64,000 nucleotides of DNA from Candidatus Aenigmatarchaeota archaeon (GTDB taxonomy: Archaea > Aenigmatarchaeota > Aenigmatarchaeia > CG10238-14), in contig JAGVVZ010000006.1 in assembly GCA_018304545.1 (NCBI GenBank), forward strand, positions 40,239 through 104,238, in the 5' to 3' direction. Of this stretch, positions 4,000 through 44,770 are shown piece after piece. Position 1 is the stretch's first letter. Every line of letters starts with the position of its first letter. The notes under the pieces were generated by a model that was given only the letters and a program-made list of their open reading frames with translations, did no database searches and was not told the DNA's origin. Made by a program: the position numbers and the translations under genes.

Positions 4000-4102
4000 G
4001 CCCTGGTAGCTCAGTTTGGATAGAAGCTTATAGCTATTAGGCAGCGCTCTCCTATCTAAGGAAGAAAGGCGAAGGTCTGGGGTTCAAATCCCCTCCAGGG
4101 CA
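4000..4102 (+). tRNA. intron- or insertion-containing tRNA; isotype uncertain (possibly Arg-TCT); serves as integration site
   Basis: Acceptor GCCCTGG (4000-4006) pairs with CCAGGGC (4095-4101); T-arm GGGG-TTCAAAT-CCCC; D-stem GCTC; length 103 nt, about 28 nt longer than a standard tRNA. Confidence 0.8.
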
Positions 4103-35233: not shown

Positions 35234-35500
35234 TTATTCAATATTTATTCTAGTTCCCATTGCTTGTCCTGGCAGATTTCTTTCAAATTTGGCTCTCACG
35301 ATACCTTTGTTGCCATGCACACCTGTAATTTGGCCCTTAAACTCTTTGCCCGAAGGTGATTTCCATAGCAATGATTTGCCAAGCAGTTTTTCAGCTTTTT
35401 CTTTGCTGTCTACATTATTAATTTCAACAAGCAACTGGTTCGTATTTTGAGTATGTCTGCCTCTTCTGTAACTTAAAATAATGCCATTCATAACAATCAT
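35234..35500 (-). CDS. rpl35ae: ribosomal protein L35Ae
   Basis: 88 aa; GIILSYRRGRHTQNTNQLLVEI...GKSLLWKSPSGKEFKGQITGVHGNKGIVRAKFERNLPGQAMGTRINI. Confidence 0.9.
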   Translation of the reverse strand: MIVMNGIILSYRRGRHTQNTNQLLVEINNVDSKEKAEKLLGKSLLWKSPSGKEFKGQITGVHGNKGIVRAKFERNLPGQAMGTRINIE

Positions 35501-35581: not shown

Positions 35582-36118
35582 CTAAGCTTTCTCATAATCA
35601 ATCATCCTTGCGTATAATTTGCAGACATAACTGTATCTCCTAGTACCTGGTGTTATCCGTCCTCTCACATATTCTATTATCTCATCTCTTCGATCCACCA
35701 AATCTCTTCTTACATCTCTTATACAATCATAAGCTATGCTTAATCCAAAGGGACCTATACCTTCAGTGTAGTCTGTATTCAAACTTAAAACTTTTGCAAT
35801 TGGAAGTTCTAAAGGTTTGAATCTTCCAGAAGGTATGTCTGCGATTTGCGGTATATCTGGTGAACTGCCTCTCGAACCTGATTGGGTGCCATATATCATA
35901 GCAGTGACAAAACGTGTTTCAATCAACGCGCTTCTATTCAAAAAAGGTGTTTGCAAATATTCTTTCCACAACGCTGAATCAAATAAATAGCTTAATGGAT
36001 CTTCAATAGGAAATTCTGGACTGGTCAAGGCTTTTTGGATTCTATAAGGAACATAGACGGTTAAGAAAAACGGTTTTCTATATCCACCGTGGGCAAGCTG
36101 GATTTCTCTTGATAGCAT
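35582..36118 (-). CDS. protein of unknown function
   Basis: 178-aa ORF. Confidence 0.5.
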   Translation of the reverse strand: MLSREIQLAHGGYRKPFFLTVYVPYRIQKALTSPEFPIEDPLSYLFDSALWKEYLQTPFLNRSALIETRFVTAMIYGTQSGSRGSSPDIPQIADIPSGRFKPLELPIAKVLSLNTDYTEGIGPFGLSIAYDCIRDVRRDLVDRRDEIIEYVRGRITPGTRRYSYVCKLYARMIDYEKA

Positions 36119-36160
36119 AATCCAGAATTCAAAAGTTAAAGCTAAATCTGTTTCTTTGTC

Positions 36161-36838
36161 TCAGTGGCTGTTATATTTTAGTTTCCTCGCACAACTGAGT
36201 TGGCGTGTAAATTCTCTAAATCCTAAAAATTTGACATAACTAATCCACATGCCAACATCCTTTAAAAAACCTATGATACCTGATTTTTGGATTTTGAATA
36301 CTTGACCCACATTTCCCAAAATTACAATGCCTGTCTTGGATTTATTAAGAAATATTTTATTCATAGCCGGTTCCAGCAAATAGTCTCCAAAATCGAAAAT
36401 TTCAACATTTCTAATCAATTTATTTTTATAGACTGCTCTCTGTCCTGTGTATGCCGTTGAGAAACCTATAAGTTTTGAGAAAAACATATCTCTTTCCCAT
36501 TCACCCAATATCATGTCGCAGTTGTTATCTGCCATCTCCTTCAACATAGCATCAGCATGATACGTCTTGAAATTCGTAATGTCCGAATCGAGAAACAATA
36601 ATATATTCGACCTGGCTTCAAAAACACCGCTCCTTATGGCAGCAGATTTTCCTAAGTTCTTTTCGTGAGTTATTAATCTTATCCCTCTTATACTATCCAA
36701 AATTTTTTTAGTATAAAGATCGGAGCCATCGTCCACAATTATTATTTCTCTTATCAGTTTTGATTTTTTGATTTCATTTATAATCGGAATGATTCTTTTG
36801 CCTTCATTATGACATGGGATTATAACAGAGGCTTTCAT
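36161..36838 (-). CDS. family 2 glycosyltransferase
   Basis: 225 aa; MKASVIIPCHNEGKRI, REIIIVDDGS, ILLFLDSDI. Confidence 0.88.
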   Translation of the reverse strand: MKASVIIPCHNEGKRIIPIINEIKKSKLIREIIIVDDGSDLYTKKILDSIRGIRLITHEKNLGKSAAIRSGVFEARSNILLFLDSDITNFKTYHADAMLKEMADNNCDMILGEWERDMFFSKLIGFSTAYTGQRAVYKNKLIRNVEIFDFGDYLLEPAMNKIFLNKSKTGIVILGNVGQVFKIQKSGIIGFLKDVGMWISYVKFLGFREFTRQLSCARKLKYNSH

Positions 36839-36869: not shown

Positions 36870-37994
36870 CTAATTTTTATCTTCTTTTATAGCTCTGGAA
36901 AGATCCCTTATTAGATTGCGAACATATTCTCTCATCCTGTAAACTTCCTTTTCATCTAATTTATCAACCTTATGCTTGTCAGCTAAATCTTTCATTATTT
37001 CTATTTTCTTCCACATATCCCAATAGTAACCGTCGACCATGTGCTTGTCAACTATCTCTCTCTTGAATGTCTCGCTTACTTTCTTCTCATCTTCTGGCAT
37101 CTTCTTTAAGCTGCTCAATGCAGATATAGCTGCCTTACGCATCACGTCATAAGTCCTTTCCAAAACCTTTTCCTTTTTCCTCGTCTCTAAGATCGATAGC
37201 AGGTCATACATTTTATTAATGAACTCATCTGACTTATCTATCCACTCATCGACAAAAGCACCAGTAACATCCATTAGTTCTTTATGCTCTATTTTCTTTC
37301 TTACTTCAATTATATCTCTCAGCCAATCTGCGTATTTTTGTTCGAGTATGCCTGGTTCAACCAGATATTTTATCACTTCATCATGCGCCTTGTTGGGAAC
37401 TGGCGGCTCTAAACCCATAAACATGAGCACTGCCTGAGCTGTATTCAAAATGGCATAATAGCAATCCTCAGCAAGCATCAGCAGCTTTACTGTCTTCGCA
37501 CGCATTATTTTTTTAGGTGCGCCATCCATATAGCTTTCCACTGCCTCTCTTGTAGCAGGGATTTTGCCCATCTCCAGTAATCTCTTGAAAGGTGTGAAGA
37601 ATCCCGTATCATAAATCGCCTTGCCTTCTTTTATGAAATTGTAAATGATCGGATGTGCCACCCGAGCAAAGTCCATAAATTCTGTCAGCGTATATAACGG
37701 CTGGACGGAAATTGCCAGTGATATATCTTGAGCCATTTTCACAATGTCGCTATCAATTCTTGCCTTCTCATCCATTTCTATTGGCTTATCAGTATCATCT
37801 ATAACAACGAACAGATCCACATCTGATTTCTGTTGAAACTCGCCCCTGGCAACCGATCCCATAATCACAATGCATTTGATCCTTTCTTTATATTTATCAA
37901 TAACCTGTTTCTTCAGTTTTTCAACGTTGGGCATTATATCTTTTGAGTCTATAGTTACTAGCTCCTCTTTCTTCTGTTCAGGTTTTTTAATCAT
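36870..37994 (-). CDS. nucleotidyltransferase (MNT)-HEPN-like fusion protein
   Basis: 374 aa; GSVARGEFQQKSDVDLFVVIDD; helical C-terminus with RKKIEH. Confidence 0.75.
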   Translation of the reverse strand: MIKKPEQKKEELVTIDSKDIMPNVEKLKKQVIDKYKERIKCIVIMGSVARGEFQQKSDVDLFVVIDDTDKPIEMDEKARIDSDIVKMAQDISLAISVQPLYTLTEFMDFARVAHPIIYNFIKEGKAIYDTGFFTPFKRLLEMGKIPATREAVESYMDGAPKKIMRAKTVKLLMLAEDCYYAILNTAQAVLMFMGLEPPVPNKAHDEVIKYLVEPGILEQKYADWLRDIIEVRKKIEHKELMDVTGAFVDEWIDKSDEFINKMYDLLSILETRKKEKVLERTYDVMRKAAISALSSLKKMPEDEKKVSETFKREIVDKHMVDGYYWDMWKKIEIMKDLADKHKVDKLDEKEVYRMREYVRNLIRDLSRAIKEDKN

Positions 37995-38882
37995 TTAAAT
38001 CAACAATCCAAAATCATATTCTTTCAGTTCGTTCGGCAAGAATTTCTTCATTCTATCAATAATTTCTTTGGACAACTTCATTGCTTTGTCTAGATGTTGC
38101 GGCTCGACCGCCTTGATTCTTTCGTGATCCATATCCTTCCACAGCGCATTCAGCTCTTTGAATTTATCAACATATTCGCTCTCCAATTTATGATCCTTGA
38201 CAAGTTTTTCAAGCCAATCTGGCATATTTCTTTGATCCGGAGCCTCTTTATATAAATACATTATAACTGACTGGCATGCGTCCGTGGCTGCATATCTCAA
38301 ATCAAACACCATCGTCTTCATGCCCAACTCTACCCGTTTGATTATTGCATCTCCCGATCTAGCTTTTAATCCGATCGATTCATCGCTAGGCGGAAGCAAC
38401 CCAGATTTCAGCATTCTCTGGACGGGCTTTACGAAGCCTGTATCATATATTACTAATCCTACTCTAAGAAAATTAAATAGCTCTGGCGATCCCCTCTTCA
38501 TCCATGCCCAGAATTCTGTCAGTGGCGTCATTTGAATATGCAACCCCTTCATCTCTGTCGTGATTATCTGCAGTTGTGCTCGGATTCTGTTAACATCTTC
38601 CGAACTCTTCGTGGCCGTGTCATCCACAACAACCCACAGATCAATATCAGACGTTGCCTTCATATCGCCTCTTGCTGCTGATCCAAAAATAAGGACGGAT
38701 TTGACTTGATCCCCGTACATCTTTTTAATCCTGTTTGTGAATTCTATGACCCGTGAATAGAAGTCTTTTTTCTTTATCTCTTCATCCCAATTATCTGCAA
38801 CAGATGGAGGGGATAGTTCTATCTCTCCCTTGTTTAGTAAAAATGGTTCTACAAGCTCCTTTGCCAGTTCGTCAATAGCCAT
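37995..38882 (-). CDS. nucleotidyltransferase (MNT)-HEPN-like fusion, paralog of the neighbouring gene
   Basis: 295 aa; GSAARGDMKATSDIDLWVVVDD; shared VIYDTGFVKPVQRMLKSGLLP / AIYDTGFFTPFKRLLEMGKIP. Confidence 0.75.
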   Translation of the reverse strand: MAIDELAKELVEPFLLNKGEIELSPPSVADNWDEEIKKKDFYSRVIEFTNRIKKMYGDQVKSVLIFGSAARGDMKATSDIDLWVVVDDTATKSSEDVNRIRAQLQIITTEMKGLHIQMTPLTEFWAWMKRGSPELFNFLRVGLVIYDTGFVKPVQRMLKSGLLPPSDESIGLKARSGDAIIKRVELGMKTMVFDLRYAATDACQSVIMYLYKEAPDQRNMPDWLEKLVKDHKLESEYVDKFKELNALWKDMDHERIKAVEPQHLDKAMKLSKEIIDRMKKFLPNELKEYDFGLLI

Positions 38883-38984
38883 AATTATACATTCTCCAGA
38901 TTGTATATAAAATTAACTACTATATTGTAGTTATATTAATCATCAACCCTTAATACACAGATTGCATTTCGATTAATAAAAAAC

Positions 38985-40994
38985 TTACCTTAATTCTTCC
39001 TTTAACCAGTCTTCAGGTCTCTTGCCTGCCTTCAATGCAGCACTGCTCAGCAACGTATGTTCTTCCTCAGGCGACCTCAACTGTCCTTTTAATGGCTCGA
39101 ATGCGTGCTGGAATATATGCACTCTTTGTCTTGCCCAGTCTCTCGTTCCCTCTGATATTGCAAAGAACGTCTCAGGCAGTTTTTCTGGAGGTATATCTTT
39201 AGCTAAGTTTTCAGATATCGTTCTCAAAGCAATCACACTTCCCCTGAATGGATCATCTCCGCCGCCTCTCTCAAAAAGTAGATAAACCACATGTTTTCTG
39301 CCCATGTCACCGTCTTTTCTTAATTTCCACAATAATTCATAAATAACTATTCTATCCGCAATATCAATCGGCTTGTGCGGTTGCAGCGGACTGGGATAAT
39401 TTGCGTGTATGCCGATGATATAATCACCGACTTTGATATCCAGTCTTTTCGTCGCATCTATCAGATCTTCAGCCTCGTCAAACGGGTCGACGCCTTGAGT
39501 AGCCACATGCTCCCAGTCTATAATCATGAAAATTTTGTCATGATACGGATTCGGACCGCCTTTGAGATTTTCTAATGCCTCTCTTATGTGCTTGACGGCA
39601 GCAAGAATCTGCTTGGGTCTCCATAACATATATCTTCCGCCAAACTCCGGATTTCTTGCATCCGGCACTTCAAATGTTATCAAGAAATCTTTCAGATTTT
39701 CAAACAGTATTTTTTTCTGCTGGTCTCTCTTCTTTTGTTCGCCTGACGGTATAATCGCATCTATCTCTCTCGATATTATTTTTTTCAATCCGTTGTCGTC
39801 CTTCATCCATTCCGCTAGTTCAACAATGTGTCCCTGAAGATATTTAGCGGCTACAACACCATAGTAAAATTCCTTAAATAGAATTGAAGTGTCTTTGATT
39901 TCGCTGTTCGCTTTCTCATACGCTTTATCCAACCACTCATCATCACTCAAAGGGTTATCAAAATTATAATAATAATTGGAAAGAAAGTCCTTGTACATCA
40001 CTGCCATCTCTTTCCAGAGTGGGTCTTGATTTAAAAACAGGTTATGAGCAACGATATAATACGCATCATCCAACGTCTCGCCGAACTTATCTTCCTGATG
40101 CCAGTCCAGACCCTGAAGTAAATGTTTCCCAACCGCTTCAACAATCTGTTTTCTCGTTTCAACAACTAAACTATTTTCTAATTTTATTCTATTTTTGTAA
40201 TCGCTCTGAATAATGGCTGATTGCTTTTCTTCAATTGTAGGCTGTCTTCCATTCGCCTCGAGAGTCTCTCTTATTCTCGGATCGACCTCGGGTCCCCTGT
40301 ATATTTTGTCTATTACATCTTCTGCTGTGGCTTTTTGAATACTATTTGTTGCTTCCCCGCCCATTATAACTTGCGACCATCTGTAAGCATAATCTCTTCT
40401 AAAAAAATATGCTTTGCCGTTTTTGGGATCAATGCTTTCAGGCAGACTGGTTTTCTTAAACCACTCCACTAGTTTCGGATTGTTTTTAAACAATTTTTTC
40501 CCAAGAAAATTCCCGGAAGGGTCGCACATTGTAATGTAAAGCCGTTGGCCGGCATGCGTGAATAGCTCAAGCCATTCTCTAAGACATGAGTGGAAATTGA
40601 CGTACTTGCATCCGCCATAAACTCCTGACTTAACTGCCTTTTCCAGTTTGTTCTGTGTGATAATCCATTCTGTCCTGTCCGGCAGTTCCAATGGCGCCTG
40701 CAAATCACCGTGCAGCAGCATATCCACTTCCATTTTTTCAGAAATATATCTTATCTCCTTGCCTTCAGAAAAATTGATTTCATGAGGGATATCGCTCGCA
40801 ATCTCAACCGCGCCAGCACCCCTCGTTAATGCATATCCAGTCTTCTTAACCAAAGTATTTATTTCATCAGAACGGGCGGCATAATAAATTCCGGATGATA
40901 CAGCAACCTTAAAACCGCCTGACTCTTTTTTGTTCTTGAATGGAGTTTTAATTTTTACATTGGTCAGTTTTTCGATAACTCCCTTTATATCCAT
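38985..40994 (-). CDS. large xylose-isomerase/EndoIV-like TIM-barrel protein
   Basis: 669 aa; LLHGDLQAP, GGCKYVNFHSC, IIDWEHVATQG, GIHANYPSPLQPHKPI, YLLFERGGGDDPF resemble the AP2Ec metal-site strands. Confidence 0.55.
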   Translation of the reverse strand: MDIKGVIEKLTNVKIKTPFKNKKESGGFKVAVSSGIYYAARSDEINTLVKKTGYALTRGAGAVEIASDIPHEINFSEGKEIRYISEKMEVDMLLHGDLQAPLELPDRTEWIITQNKLEKAVKSGVYGGCKYVNFHSCLREWLELFTHAGQRLYITMCDPSGNFLGKKLFKNNPKLVEWFKKTSLPESIDPKNGKAYFFRRDYAYRWSQVIMGGEATNSIQKATAEDVIDKIYRGPEVDPRIRETLEANGRQPTIEEKQSAIIQSDYKNRIKLENSLVVETRKQIVEAVGKHLLQGLDWHQEDKFGETLDDAYYIVAHNLFLNQDPLWKEMAVMYKDFLSNYYYNFDNPLSDDEWLDKAYEKANSEIKDTSILFKEFYYGVVAAKYLQGHIVELAEWMKDDNGLKKIISREIDAIIPSGEQKKRDQQKKILFENLKDFLITFEVPDARNPEFGGRYMLWRPKQILAAVKHIREALENLKGGPNPYHDKIFMIIDWEHVATQGVDPFDEAEDLIDATKRLDIKVGDYIIGIHANYPSPLQPHKPIDIADRIVIYELLWKLRKDGDMGRKHVVYLLFERGGGDDPFRGSVIALRTISENLAKDIPPEKLPETFFAISEGTRDWARQRVHIFQHAFEPLKGQLRSPEEEHTLLSSAALKAGKRPEDWLKEELR

Positions 40995-42940
40995 GCCTTC
41001 ACCTCGGCACCAGGAACGCCAGATCCCTTCTTCAGATAATCTGAAACCACGCCATACATTCTGCCCGGGCCTAGTTGCATCATCTTAGACATTCTTTCAT
41101 TCATTAGTTTCTCATATGGTCCTGGATAAGCAAACACGACTTCTATTCCTAGCTTGTTCATGAAATCCAAGAAATCTCTTCTGAATTTGTTAAGCTCCCC
41201 TCTTAATTTATCAAGTGATGAAATCTCTTTATTTTCTTCTTTCTTGAATTTTTTTTCCAACAATCCTTTCTGTTCTTCGTCTTTTGCAAAAAACTCAGGA
41301 AATTCTGATTTTATGGAATCTTCAATACTCATGATCTTGCCTTCGGCATCAATCTGCTCACCTACCATCATTGCCACATCCCTCTCTTCTTTTTTAGCCA
41401 TTGCCCACAGCTCAATTTGCCTCCCTAAAATGATGTTTTGCGTGCAGTTGAAAGTTTTTAGCGGTTCGAACCACATGTCTTCAAACATTCCACCATTGGG
41501 CAGACGAATAACAGTTCTCACAAGATCCATATAAATAAACACAAAGTAAGGACTGAAAGGCCATTTTATTCCCGGCTTTATACCTGTAGGTCTTTCTGGT
41601 GTTCCAAATCTTAGGCTGAATGTTTCTATCGTATTATAAACCACTGAAGGCACCTGTTCTAATGGAAGCACTTCATATTCATCTTGTATTTGAGCTATTA
41701 TCGTCAATAAAGGATCATCAATCATTGGTGACATCGGCAATGCTGGAACTTCATTTCTTTTTTCTTTTTCCAGTTTCTTTACTGCATCAAGCATTCTTTT
41801 TCTGTCTTCCTCTTTCCCATATAAATCCACGAGCTTGTAAAAACCTGCCTCTTTGAATGTCAATTTCTCATACGTCTCTTTTGAATGTTTGAATAATTCG
41901 GGAACGATAAATGGCCGCCATGACCATACCACTGTATTATCCAGAGATACGGCCTGGGAATCTGGCCTGAAGAAATGCAGCCTTTCCATCCAAGATGCTC
42001 CGCCCTCACGCATTTCTTTGATTGCCCTATACCTAGAGATTAGTGGCTTTACTTGATTCCTGTATTCCAATATTGATCTTTTTCTTGCCTCCATCATCAT
42101 TTTTAATCTTTCATATCTTTCTTTTATAGTTGGCAAAAAAATTCTATCTCTCCATTCTAGGAATAATTTATTTTTTGTTACAAGTATGACAGCTTCAGCG
42201 CGCGAAATGTCTAATCTGTCTACAATTTTCTTTTCTTCTGTCTCATCATCCTTCAATTCCATAAAATCAGAAATGATAGTAGGCCATCGCGGAGCAATTG
42301 TACGCATAGCTATGCCTTCGCCTGCATGAGCGTCGACATAATCAACAAACACTGCACGCAATACATGAAGTGCTTCCCTCAGCTTTCTATCTGCATCATC
42401 TAAATCTCGGTTTTCAACTTTGCCGCTTCTTATTTCTTCAATCATTTTTTTACCCAATTTTTTTTCAACCTTCTCTAAATCTCTTCTTGCCTCGTCGATT
42501 TTAGCAAAATAATTCAGATATTCCTTATATTTTCTTACATCATGCGACAGCAATTCAAAATCAGTAATTGCATTAGTTAGGCTTGCAAAGCCGTTCTTGA
42601 TCTGCTCCTCCAGCTGACGTTTAATATCCATTGTCCTCTGATAATATTCTGTGAAGACGGGAGACACCTCGACTGATGTTGAAACTTTGAATGTATCATA
42701 GCCCCACTTTCCTAGTTGGAAGAGGAGACCGAGCATTATTCCGGAACCGCCGCCCATCTCATAGGTAAGATCTATCAGTCCTTCAGCCTCGAATGGAGCT
42801 GCGTTAATTCCTTCTCCCGGATACATTCTAAGCTTGAATTTTTTGCCGTTGATTTGCTTTGTTGTAAAGGGTAAAGGTCCACCAAAACTAGCGACTGGAT
42901 CTCCTACGGGCGGAAATGGCCCTGCTGGATAATTAACCAT
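40985..42940 (-). CDS. 651-aa coiled-coil-rich protein of unknown function
   Basis: Overlaps the TIM-barrel gene by 10 nt; Gly/Pro-rich N-terminus followed by long charged helical stretches. Confidence 0.6.
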   Translation of the reverse strand: MVNYPAGPFPPVGDPVASFGGPLPFTTKQINGKKFKLRMYPGEGINAAPFEAEGLIDLTYEMGGGSGIMLGLLFQLGKWGYDTFKVSTSVEVSPVFTEYYQRTMDIKRQLEEQIKNGFASLTNAITDFELLSHDVRKYKEYLNYFAKIDEARRDLEKVEKKLGKKMIEEIRSGKVENRDLDDADRKLREALHVLRAVFVDYVDAHAGEGIAMRTIAPRWPTIISDFMELKDDETEEKKIVDRLDISRAEAVILVTKNKLFLEWRDRIFLPTIKERYERLKMMMEARKRSILEYRNQVKPLISRYRAIKEMREGGASWMERLHFFRPDSQAVSLDNTVVWSWRPFIVPELFKHSKETYEKLTFKEAGFYKLVDLYGKEEDRKRMLDAVKKLEKEKRNEVPALPMSPMIDDPLLTIIAQIQDEYEVLPLEQVPSVVYNTIETFSLRFGTPERPTGIKPGIKWPFSPYFVFIYMDLVRTVIRLPNGGMFEDMWFEPLKTFNCTQNIILGRQIELWAMAKKEERDVAMMVGEQIDAEGKIMSIEDSIKSEFPEFFAKDEEQKGLLEKKFKKEENKEISSLDKLRGELNKFRRDFLDFMNKLGIEVVFAYPGPYEKLMNERMSKMMQLGPGRMYGVVSDYLKKGSGVPGAEVKAWI

Positions 42941-43034
42941 ATTATTTTATTATGTTTTCTATTTGATAAAAGTTTACAGTTTTCTAGATGCTTATATCAA
43001 ACAAGCAGAAATTTTATTTATTTATAAGAATATC

Positions 43035-43193
43035 CTACAACTTCCACAAGAATATCCCTATACCCAAGAGCAATATCCCCATGAGTATGCCAATGTTTGT
43101 GAACCATGACATCTGATGAGCACCTGTATACGGAAAGAATATTATCATTGTTATTCCTAAAAATATGAATCCTAGTGCTAATAACTTTGGCAT
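43035..43193 (-). CDS. 52-aa two-TM mini membrane protein
   Basis: MPKLLALGFIFLGITMIIFFPYTGAHQMSWFTNIGILMGILLLGIGIFLWKL; not in the supplied ORF list. Confidence 0.55.
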   Translation of the reverse strand: MPKLLALGFIFLGITMIIFFPYTGAHQMSWFTNIGILMGILLLGIGIFLWKL

Positions 43194-43200
43194 TATCTCA

Positions 43201-43356
43201 TTAAAGATTTAGTAAATACAAGGACAAATAAATTAGTGTTGGTCCGAAAATTATCGCAATTGTGAACGCACCGTAATCTCCAGTCAAGTATAAAGCATAC
43301 GTTAAGTATCCGCCGACCAAAAATGCCAGCAGTCCTAAGATTTTAATAATAACCAT
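43201..43356 (-). CDS. 51-aa two-TM mini membrane protein
   Basis: MVIIKILGLLAFLVGGYLTYALYLTGDYGAFTIAIIFGPTLIYLSLYLLNL; 7-nt gap to the next ORF. Confidence 0.55.
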   Translation of the reverse strand: MVIIKILGLLAFLVGGYLTYALYLTGDYGAFTIAIIFGPTLIYLSLYLLNL

Positions 43357-43395
43357 AACCAAATTATAATAGGAAAACTTTTAATATGTGATACC
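43357..43395. promoter_or_regulatory. 39-bp bidirectional promoter
   Basis: TATA-like TTATAATA (43364-43371) about 25-32 nt upstream of the + strand ATG at 43396, and CATATTAAAAG (minus strand, about 43377-43387) about 22-31 nt upstream of the - strand ATG at 43356. Confidence 0.5.
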
Positions 43396-43929
43396 ATGCC
43401 TATATTCGCAAGAACAAAAATGATTCTGCAGGACGACTGCTGGGATATATCCGGTCCTGAAATGAAATGGAGCTACTCCGGTCCCAATCCTCATCTTGCC
43501 TATAAGAAGATAAAGGATATGTTTCTCACTGTATGGAATGTAAAGGAGAGTGAACGAGTCCAGGAGAAAGAATTTGTTTGGGACAGGGAAGGGAAGAAAG
43601 AAAAGTTCAACGTATCATGGGAGATATCAAAAGACGTGGACAGGTTTTCATATATCTATTCAAGAATATCTATTAGTGGCGAGGCCACAGAAACTGAGAA
43701 TGGCAAAGAGGGCAAGCTAAATGTTCACATAGACGGCGTTCTACGAACTGAATATCCTCAAGATACGGTATGGGAAAGAAGCATATTCTATGAAATGGCA
43801 AGGGTTTTTTGGCATAAAGTGCTTTACCAAGAACAAAGAAGAAATTATCAGGACGAGTGCAGAAAACTAATGAAAGTGTTCTTGGAAGAGTTGAAATCGT
43901 TCTTTAACCTGCTGCCAAAGATGATGTGA
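43396..43929 (+). CDS. uncharacterised protein, tandem paralog 1
   Basis: 177 aa; MILQDDC...SGPNPHLAYKKIKDMFLTVWNV...KEFVWD shared with the next ORF. Confidence 0.65.
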   Translation: MPIFARTKMILQDDCWDISGPEMKWSYSGPNPHLAYKKIKDMFLTVWNVKESERVQEKEFVWDREGKKEKFNVSWEISKDVDRFSYIYSRISISGEATETENGKEGKLNVHIDGVLRTEYPQDTVWERSIFYEMARVFWHKVLYQEQRRNYQDECRKLMKVFLEELKSFFNLLPKMM

Positions 43930-44448
43930 ATGGCAAAAATAGTAATGCAAGATGATTGTTTAGCACCAGATCTTCAAATCACTCTCAATTTTAAGGGACC
44001 CAACCCCATAATTGCGTATCAAAAACTTAAAAGGGCGATGAGAGATGTCTGGGAAGTAGAAGCGAAGGATTATTGGGAAAGAGAATTCAGATGGGACACG
44101 TCAGGTGACCCGAGAGAATTTCTTGTCAAAGCTTATGTTGTCAAGATGTTGGACAGGTTTTCCAGGGTTATAATTGAAATTTATGTCCACGGCCACCAGC
44201 CATCAGATCCGAGCAAATCCGGAGATGTGGAAGTCAGAATCGGTGGCTATCTGAAAACGGAATTTGGCGGCAAAGGCATAATAGATGATGCAAGAAATCC
44301 ATTATACAAAGGGTTGCTATGGATGTACAATAAATATTTCTATTGGGGTCAAAGAAGATATTATCTGCATGAATGGTGTTACAAGAAACTGCATAAATTC
44401 AGGGACATCTATCAAAAAATATTGAACATCTCTCCGCCTATGCAATAA
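43930..44448 (+). CDS. uncharacterised protein, tandem paralog 2
   Basis: 172 aa; IVMQDDC...KGPNPIIAYQKLKRAMRDVWEV...REFRWD; abuts the upstream stop. Confidence 0.65.
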   Translation: MAKIVMQDDCLAPDLQITLNFKGPNPIIAYQKLKRAMRDVWEVEAKDYWEREFRWDTSGDPREFLVKAYVVKMLDRFSRVIIEIYVHGHQPSDPSKSGDVEVRIGGYLKTEFGGKGIIDDARNPLYKGLLWMYNKYFYWGQRRYYLHEWCYKKLHKFRDIYQKILNISPPMQ

Positions 44449-44499
44449 TTTTATATCATCTCTTCTCTAAATTCTATTAGATAATCAAGGTGTTTTAAA

Positions 44500-44770
44500 A
44501 TGGGTATATTTCCTTTCAAATTTCTCTAAAAAGAAAACCGATCCGTCAATCCAATCATCCATGCAGAATCCTCAAGAAATAGCGAGGACAGAGCTAACTC
44601 AACTGACTGATGACAATAAAAAAGCAGATATGGACAGAGTCAGAGCGAAACTGGACCTTATTTTGACTGAACTGGACAGTTTGAAGATATTGAATCAAAC
44701 GTTGAATGAAAGATTAAGAAATATTGAGAACAAGATCAGCGAGAACAAGGATAGAATAAGATATGTATAG
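44500..44770 (+). CDS. small coiled-coil protein; coding resumes in +1 frame after an apparent frameshift
   Basis: ATG at 44500 gives MGIFPFKFL-stop; +1 frame continues SKKKTDPSIQSSMQNPQEIARTELTQL... (listed as ORF 44561-44770). Confidence 0.5.

Follow-up and report, generated by a model that had tools for sequence, protein, structure and literature searches.

A conserved set of MNT-HEPN, TIM-barrel and coiled-coil genes shared by several archaeal phyla

In the part of their survey considered here, Makarova et al. 2019 (PMC6393860) described the MNT-HEPN family cls.004259 (NEQ050) as DPANN-specific, unusually conserved and set in a housekeeping context, and judged this single family to be most probably a toxin-antitoxin module; the same part contains the alpha-helical family NEQ484. 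Related in architecture are the type VII systems MntA/HepT, in which, as in the proteins described below, an MNT fold with GS and DxD motifs is combined with a helical partner domain, and a 2026 survey (PMC12988326) found defence candidates of the PDC kind to be enriched in DPANN. On the scale of whole genomes, Castelle et al. 2021 (PMC8204110) reported neither a module common to all DPANN lineages yet absent from other archaea nor a set of DPANN-specific families, and Dombrowski et al. 2020 (PMC7414124) recognised a clade of Undinarchaeota and Cluster 2 DPANN marked by a fused primase and the loss of exosome Csl4. Here we analyse a locus in which two MNT-HEPN genes stand among conserved neighbours; a published description of the whole gene set was not found in our set of open-access papers, most subscription papers and preprints being outside the scope of the search.

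The locus lies in the window, by which we mean the whole stretch of 64,000 nucleotides of Aenigmatarchaeota DNA that was analysed, and all of the open reading frames originally listed were found there at the positions that follow. The minus strand carries MH1 (36870-37994; 374 aa), an MNT plus helical, HEPN-like protein, its MNT-HEPN-like paralogue MH2 (37995-38882; 295 aa), the xylose-isomerase/endonuclease-IV-like barrel TIM with a helical insert of about 250 aa (38985-40994; 669 aa), the coiled-coil stalk protein CC (40985-42940; 651 aa) and two membrane mini-proteins, TMb (43035-43193; 52 aa) and TMa (43201-43356/43362; 51 aa). The gene ends confirm that TIM and CC overlap by 10 nt and that MH1 abuts MH2, and direct reading of the sequence shows the divergent gap of 39 bp (43357-43395), a candidate promoter, to be real. 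On the plus strand P1 (43396-43929; 177 aa), an alpha/beta protein with the motif EYPQD, abuts its paralogue P2 (43930-44448; 172 aa), and the small coiled-coil protein sCC (44561-44770; 69 aa) lies beyond. The paralogy claimed for both pairs was borne out by profile-profile comparison with hhalign (E=7.5e-56 for MH1/MH2, E=1.6e-39 for P1/P2). The L35Ae ribosomal protein gene (35234-35500, minus strand), a conserved neighbour outside the gene set, directly follows MH1 in close relatives and also adjoins it in families f102 and f120 (families, genomes and loci are cited by our own f, G and L numbers); in the window it is separated from MH1 by two genes (35582-36838), one glycosyltransferase-like and one of 178 aa. 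Elsewhere in the window, a 103-nt tRNA match at 4000-4102 (Rfam, 31.5 bits), missed by ARAGORN, may contain an intron.

The nucleotidyltransferase half of the predicted MNT-HEPN fusion is secure, with a Pfam NTP_transf_2/Polbeta match for MH1 and a kanamycin nucleotidyltransferase profile match of 4.7e-9, the nearest PDB relatives being aminoglycoside nucleotidyltransferases. Residues G46, S47, D58 and D60 (GS...DxD) are kept in essentially all 115 MH sequences, and within MH1 the GS, D58, D60 and D67 are invariant save for single substitutions or gaps. Within the phylum, Q98 stands in for the third acid, at a position assigned by motif and not by structure, in every MH2 and nearly every MH1; MH2 elsewhere has Thr, Asn or Gln there. 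With this usual third acid missing, MNT catalysis is, as judged from sequence, uncertain. No HEPN model of Pfam matched MH1 or MH2, and the helical half is a putative HEPN domain on the strength of the HHpred assignment published for what is probably the same family (PMC6393860). The HEPN Rx4-6H RNase motif (R232/H237) is found in most MH1 of the phylum; its Arg occurs in 8 of 35 MH1 outside the phylum and is absent from every MH2 within it. In one phylum MH1 extends to about 600-680 aa and, from a reading of the sequence, carries a degenerate extra nucleotidyltransferase copy at its N-terminus. The MH family is very probably cls.004259/NEQ050, and CC might correspond to NEQ484 as that family appears in the part of the 2019 survey considered here.

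The identification of the 669-aa protein as a TIM barrel also proved right: a comparison of the family profile with the PDB gave endonuclease IV (E=0.002), and the curated PF01261 threshold is passed by orthologues at eight loci (L237, L233, L240, L223, L230, L236, L031 and L063), the TIM protein of the window itself having no Pfam match. These orthologue matches supersede a plain comparison with one XI-like barrel, which had given weak support. A metal-ligand set of H95, H135, E442, D493, H496, H530, H540 and E575 is conserved in 85 TIM sequences, and 8 of 9 ligand positions of the endonuclease IV type are accounted for by motif order, the mapping to endonuclease IV numbering following order and not structure. 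TIM shares its fold family with endonuclease IV/PF01261, but differs in being about twice as long, in its large helical insert and in belonging to a gene set; some genomes hold separate, shorter endonuclease-IV-like matches besides TIM.

For CC, the AlphaFold2 model (pLDDT 82) shows a small N-terminal b-a-b part and two long helices, 97-162 (66 residues) and 247-306 (60 residues), separated by a helical segment that contains strongly conserved residues. The fold search returned generic coiled-coil matches, none of them at E<=0.001, and a likeness by eye of the N-terminus to a P1-like domain was dropped when hhalign came back empty. P1 is modelled at pLDDT 87 with a helix-grip-like topology, and its Foldseek matches are mostly of the SRPBCC type, at E 6e-4 to 1e-2, but weak, with TM <= 0.35. 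On inspection, no signal peptides or transmembrane segments were seen in the CC, TIM, MH and P proteins. Of the membrane mini-proteins, TMa was found in 4 loci only and is local to close relatives. TMb homologues of 52-150 aa, a few of them longer, occupy the equivalent position in 22 loci within the phylum; others adjoin P1 in f44, f75 and f96. The sCC gene is found in 19 loci within the phylum. In f49, f121 and f125, CC is flanked by divergent small genes that resemble it and end in heptads of the QNxxIIxLLxxI type; those at L187, L190 and L191 combine such a C-terminal heptad with a disordered-looking N-terminus.

The claim of a multi-component, co-conserved gene system was examined through co-occurrence in related genomes, and the outcome was strongly positive. 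The closest relatives of MH1 lie on public contigs labelled Candidatus Aenigmatarchaeota, with a few labelled otherwise. A search with TIM found the gene in 53 of 57 relatives, and within the phylum its profile matched 133 of 143 genomes (38 of the 39 of high quality); CC was found in 145 and MH1 in 137 of 156 genomes. Genomes of the phylum without a match to CC, TIM or MH1 are mostly incomplete bins; at the thresholds used, G040 (94% complete) and G013 matched none of the three. There is usually one gene set per genome. Across 40 neighbourhoods of the phylum compared by BLASTP, P2-P1 diverges from a mini membrane gene that is followed by CC, TIM, MH2 and MH1; P1 and P2 stand in tandem in nearly all loci, and in some families MH2 is absent and MH1 directly follows TIM. 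This arrangement, repeated in most loci compared, is not due to chance.

The original prediction further held the system to be specific to its archaeal lineage, and here the CC and MH profile searches led us to retain the conserved system and to reject the restriction, since both families are found in other phyla. The original CC profile matched 26 genomes outside Aenigmatarchaeota, and a wide CC profile matched 46 of about 236 other archaeal genomes, the latter figure to be read with the knowledge that some rows of the profile were taken from those same genomes and that it was built without f50, f61, f69, f84, f91, f97, f109, f116 and f120. MH1 is the most widespread part, with 45 genomes outside the phylum. 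There, 43 genomes have both CC and MH, 2 have MH only, 3 have CC only and about 188 have neither, and the two families co-occur tightly even where their genes are unlinked. The P family, usually paired in tandem, follows the same division (33 of 40 system-positive and 0 of 9 negative genomes). The phylum to which f48, f61, f69, f76 and f83, as well as f91, f97, f102, f109, f116 and f120, belong has the MH family in 156 of 157 genomes, usually in two copies, and the phylum of f50, f84 and f110 has it in 9 of 9 genomes, including one of 3.8 Mb. In this last archaeal genome, G325, CC and two MH genes are spread over three long contigs (L209, L234 and L235); it groups with the small-genome families f50 and f84. 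That all DPANN carry the set is not supported, the MH family having been found in 0 of 60 genomes of another small-genome phylum, a search made without a positive control within that phylum. The set is thus near-universal in several DPANN phyla and, among the other archaea sampled, almost always missing. The names we give to phyla other than Aenigmatarchaeota are our own inference; the halophiles of f49, whose proteome is acidic (Asp+Glu 17-20%, Lys+Arg 10-13%) and whose genomes, mostly closed, measure about 1 Mb, are read here as Nanohaloarchaeota.

Gene order is partly retained over this range. The order CC-TIM-MH1 is seen in f49 and f121, and in f125 with a single gene separating TIM from MH1; CC-TIM-MH2 in f61 and f97, and in f120 with extra genes; and TIM-MH2-MH1, the order of the window, also in f50 and f84. 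Shorter runs are the CC-TIM pair in f69 and f76 and the TIM-MH2 pair in f61, f91, f97, f102, f116 and f120. A gene of about 190-206 aa, coiled-coil-rich where read, stands between CC and TIM in f61, f97, f76 and f69 (L241, L242, L230 and L245) and is a possible extra component. In FastTree phylogenies the number of changes of GTDB family was 37 for CC, 40 for TIM and 35 for MH1, set against 36, 38 and 35 for a perfect fit and 61-68 with shuffled labels, and the three trees gave no sign of transfer between families. Since these trees follow the GTDB families, CC, TIM and MH1 are inherited vertically.

The surroundings of the set are also recurrent. Among 52 loci within the phylum, with genes named from sequence reading without a database search, the neighbours were YchF (19), TFB (15), ABCE1 (14), KH/NusA-like (12), eIF5A (12), L35Ae (11) and Trm1 (8), figures that are raw counts over loci made non-independent by shared descent. 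By our rough reckoning any one gene would fall within 10 kb in a 0.9-Mb genome with a chance of roughly 2%. The order MH1-Trm1-TFB occurs in f44, f75 and f125, and in f102 with L35Ae as well, and f120 has S12-S7-MH1-L35Ae. Archaeal translation genes cluster, and gene order in DPANN is partly common by descent; the neighbourhood evidence is biased by both. From sequence reading, CC adjoins a Hef-type helicase gene in f44 and lies near one in f102 (L200, 5258-9650; L206, 5214-9745), with a GINS-like gene also present in f102. In G305 a run of pilin-like genes lies upstream of CC (L206, 566-5212).

Taken together, six of eight neighbouring genes very probably constitute a co-inherited functional unit. 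In our best reading, CC, TIM, MH2 and MH1 as an operon and the P1-P2 pair, with the mini membrane and small coiled-coil proteins as accessories, are an old part of the core genome of small-genome (DPANN) archaea that is passed on vertically and encodes a housekeeping complex, a proposition we regard as evenly balanced; the gene products probably form one physical complex. A single complex is not proven, as the genes are dispersed in some lineages, among them f101, and the P pair lies apart from CC in f49. More tentatively, we suggest a role in RNA or translation, a guess based on the neighbours Trm1, TFB, L35Ae, ABCE1, YchF and eIF5A and on both enzyme folds, TIM and MNT, which often act on nucleic acids. 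In such a complex we would see CC as a stalk-like scaffold, TIM as a hydrolase or isomerase that depends on metal, the MNTs as a pair of subunits binding or transferring nucleotides, and P1/P2 together with the mini-proteins as adaptors or a membrane tether. The mini membrane proteins are the only parts that point to the membrane association put forward in the original prediction. The whole could process or maintain RNA in the translation pathway, acting for instance on the ends of tRNA or rRNA or on RNA associated with ribosomes.

The reading that the original prediction had partly entertained, a toxin-antitoxin or phage-defence module built on MNT-HEPN, can point to the match of the MNT to the MntA model and to those of MH1 and MH2 to PADLOC PDC-S09 (E 4e-15 and 8e-16), as well as to PDC-M05A. 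The weighty PADLOC matches are confined to the nucleotidyltransferase domain, however, with none for TIM or CC and one marginal match for P1 (0.0098). Type VII systems consist of two separate genes with a patchy, mobile distribution, whereas the MH proteins are fused to their helical domain, form a paralogous pair, and are vertically inherited and near-universal, the family occurring in 156/157 genomes of one phylum and MH1 in 137/156 of Aenigmatarchaeota; they also lack the usual third acid and a conserved RNase Arg, the latter being absent in MH2 and, outside the phylum, in most MH1. Together with the one set usually found per genome and the housekeeping neighbours, this leaves the defence reading highly improbable, and we rejected a mobile module of this kind. 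A viral origin was likewise set aside: PHROG matches were only unannotated or marginal, and a TIM scan of IMG/VR found no relatives, weak evidence in that near-exact peptides were needed.

One could also imagine a machine of the cell envelope or of host contact, in which a membrane-tethered TMb, a CC stalk and START-like P1/P2 build or modify surface material, and TIM and MNT either synthesise an activated sugar or lipid group or transfer it. The position of CC near pilin-like genes in f102 and MoxR-type genes in f49 favours such a role, the mini membrane proteins stay beside P1 where CC moves off, SRPBCC proteins that bind lipids or other ligands abound among the Foldseek matches of P1, and the carriers are mostly thought to be symbionts. 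We nevertheless find it unlikely, if worth keeping in mind, given the weakness of the P1 fold match, the CC, TIM, MH and P proteins free of export or membrane segments, and the translation genes that are the commonest recurrent neighbours. Slightly less likely again is a metabolic enzyme complex, with TIM as a sugar-phosphate isomerase or epimerase and the MNTs nucleotidylating a small molecule: PF01261 holds isomerases, and kanamycin-nucleotidyltransferase-like enzymes, among which are the closest structures to MH1, nucleotidylate small molecules, but no pathway genes lie repeatedly beside the cluster, and neither a 650-aa coiled-coil scaffold nor the P pair has an obvious metabolic part to play. 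It is also improbable that the cluster is a syntenic relic, an ancestral superoperon keeping together essential genes of unrelated function. Nearby translation genes do travel with the cluster, yet the CC-TIM-MH2-MH1 order persists where the translation neighbours differ, CC and MH remain associated where unlinked, and CC, TIM and MH1 are apparently all absent from G040 and G013.

Returning to the housekeeping complex, the MNT-HEPN family alone was already flagged in 2019, in the part of that survey (PMC6393860) considered here, where cls.004259 is listed alone, without a link to TIM, CC or P1/P2. Castelle et al. 2021 pursued the same quest for DPANN-wide families, and sequence divergence probably hides the present ones from clustering of the kind used there (PMC8204110); the present set differs from the modules sought in being missing from one small-genome phylum. 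Its apparent span, which takes in Aenigmatarchaeota, Nanohaloarchaeota-like halophiles and other phyla but leaves out one small-genome phylum, resembles that of the clade of PMC7414124, with the proviso that phylum names are inferred. The synapomorphies of that clade are a primase fusion and the loss of Csl4, whereas the present set would be a multi-gene gain. We give a little less than even weight to the idea that a multi-subunit machine was gained once in a DPANN ancestor (of Cluster 2, possibly with Undinarchaeota), became indispensable and is absent from most other archaea. More speculatively, the machine may make up for an RNA-processing part that was lost, exosome Csl4 for example.

To our knowledge, near-universal, vertically inherited gene sets without a known function are rare. 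That six genes persist in nearly every member, in genomes that measure about 1 Mb and have shed most pathways, suggests an essential job, and the set runs counter to published claims that there are no DPANN-specific families. It also carries a warning, as MNT-HEPN genes tallied as DPANN defence candidates may be housekeeping, and some of the defence-candidate calls may be the MH gene itself. The set offers a concrete biochemical target in cultured host-symbiont pairs and a multi-gene character with which to test disputed DPANN relationships, notably those of Nanohaloarchaeota. If the single-gain reading is true, it would add an essential complex to those already described, as well as a trait of several genes, held in common, that places Nanohaloarchaeota with other DPANN.
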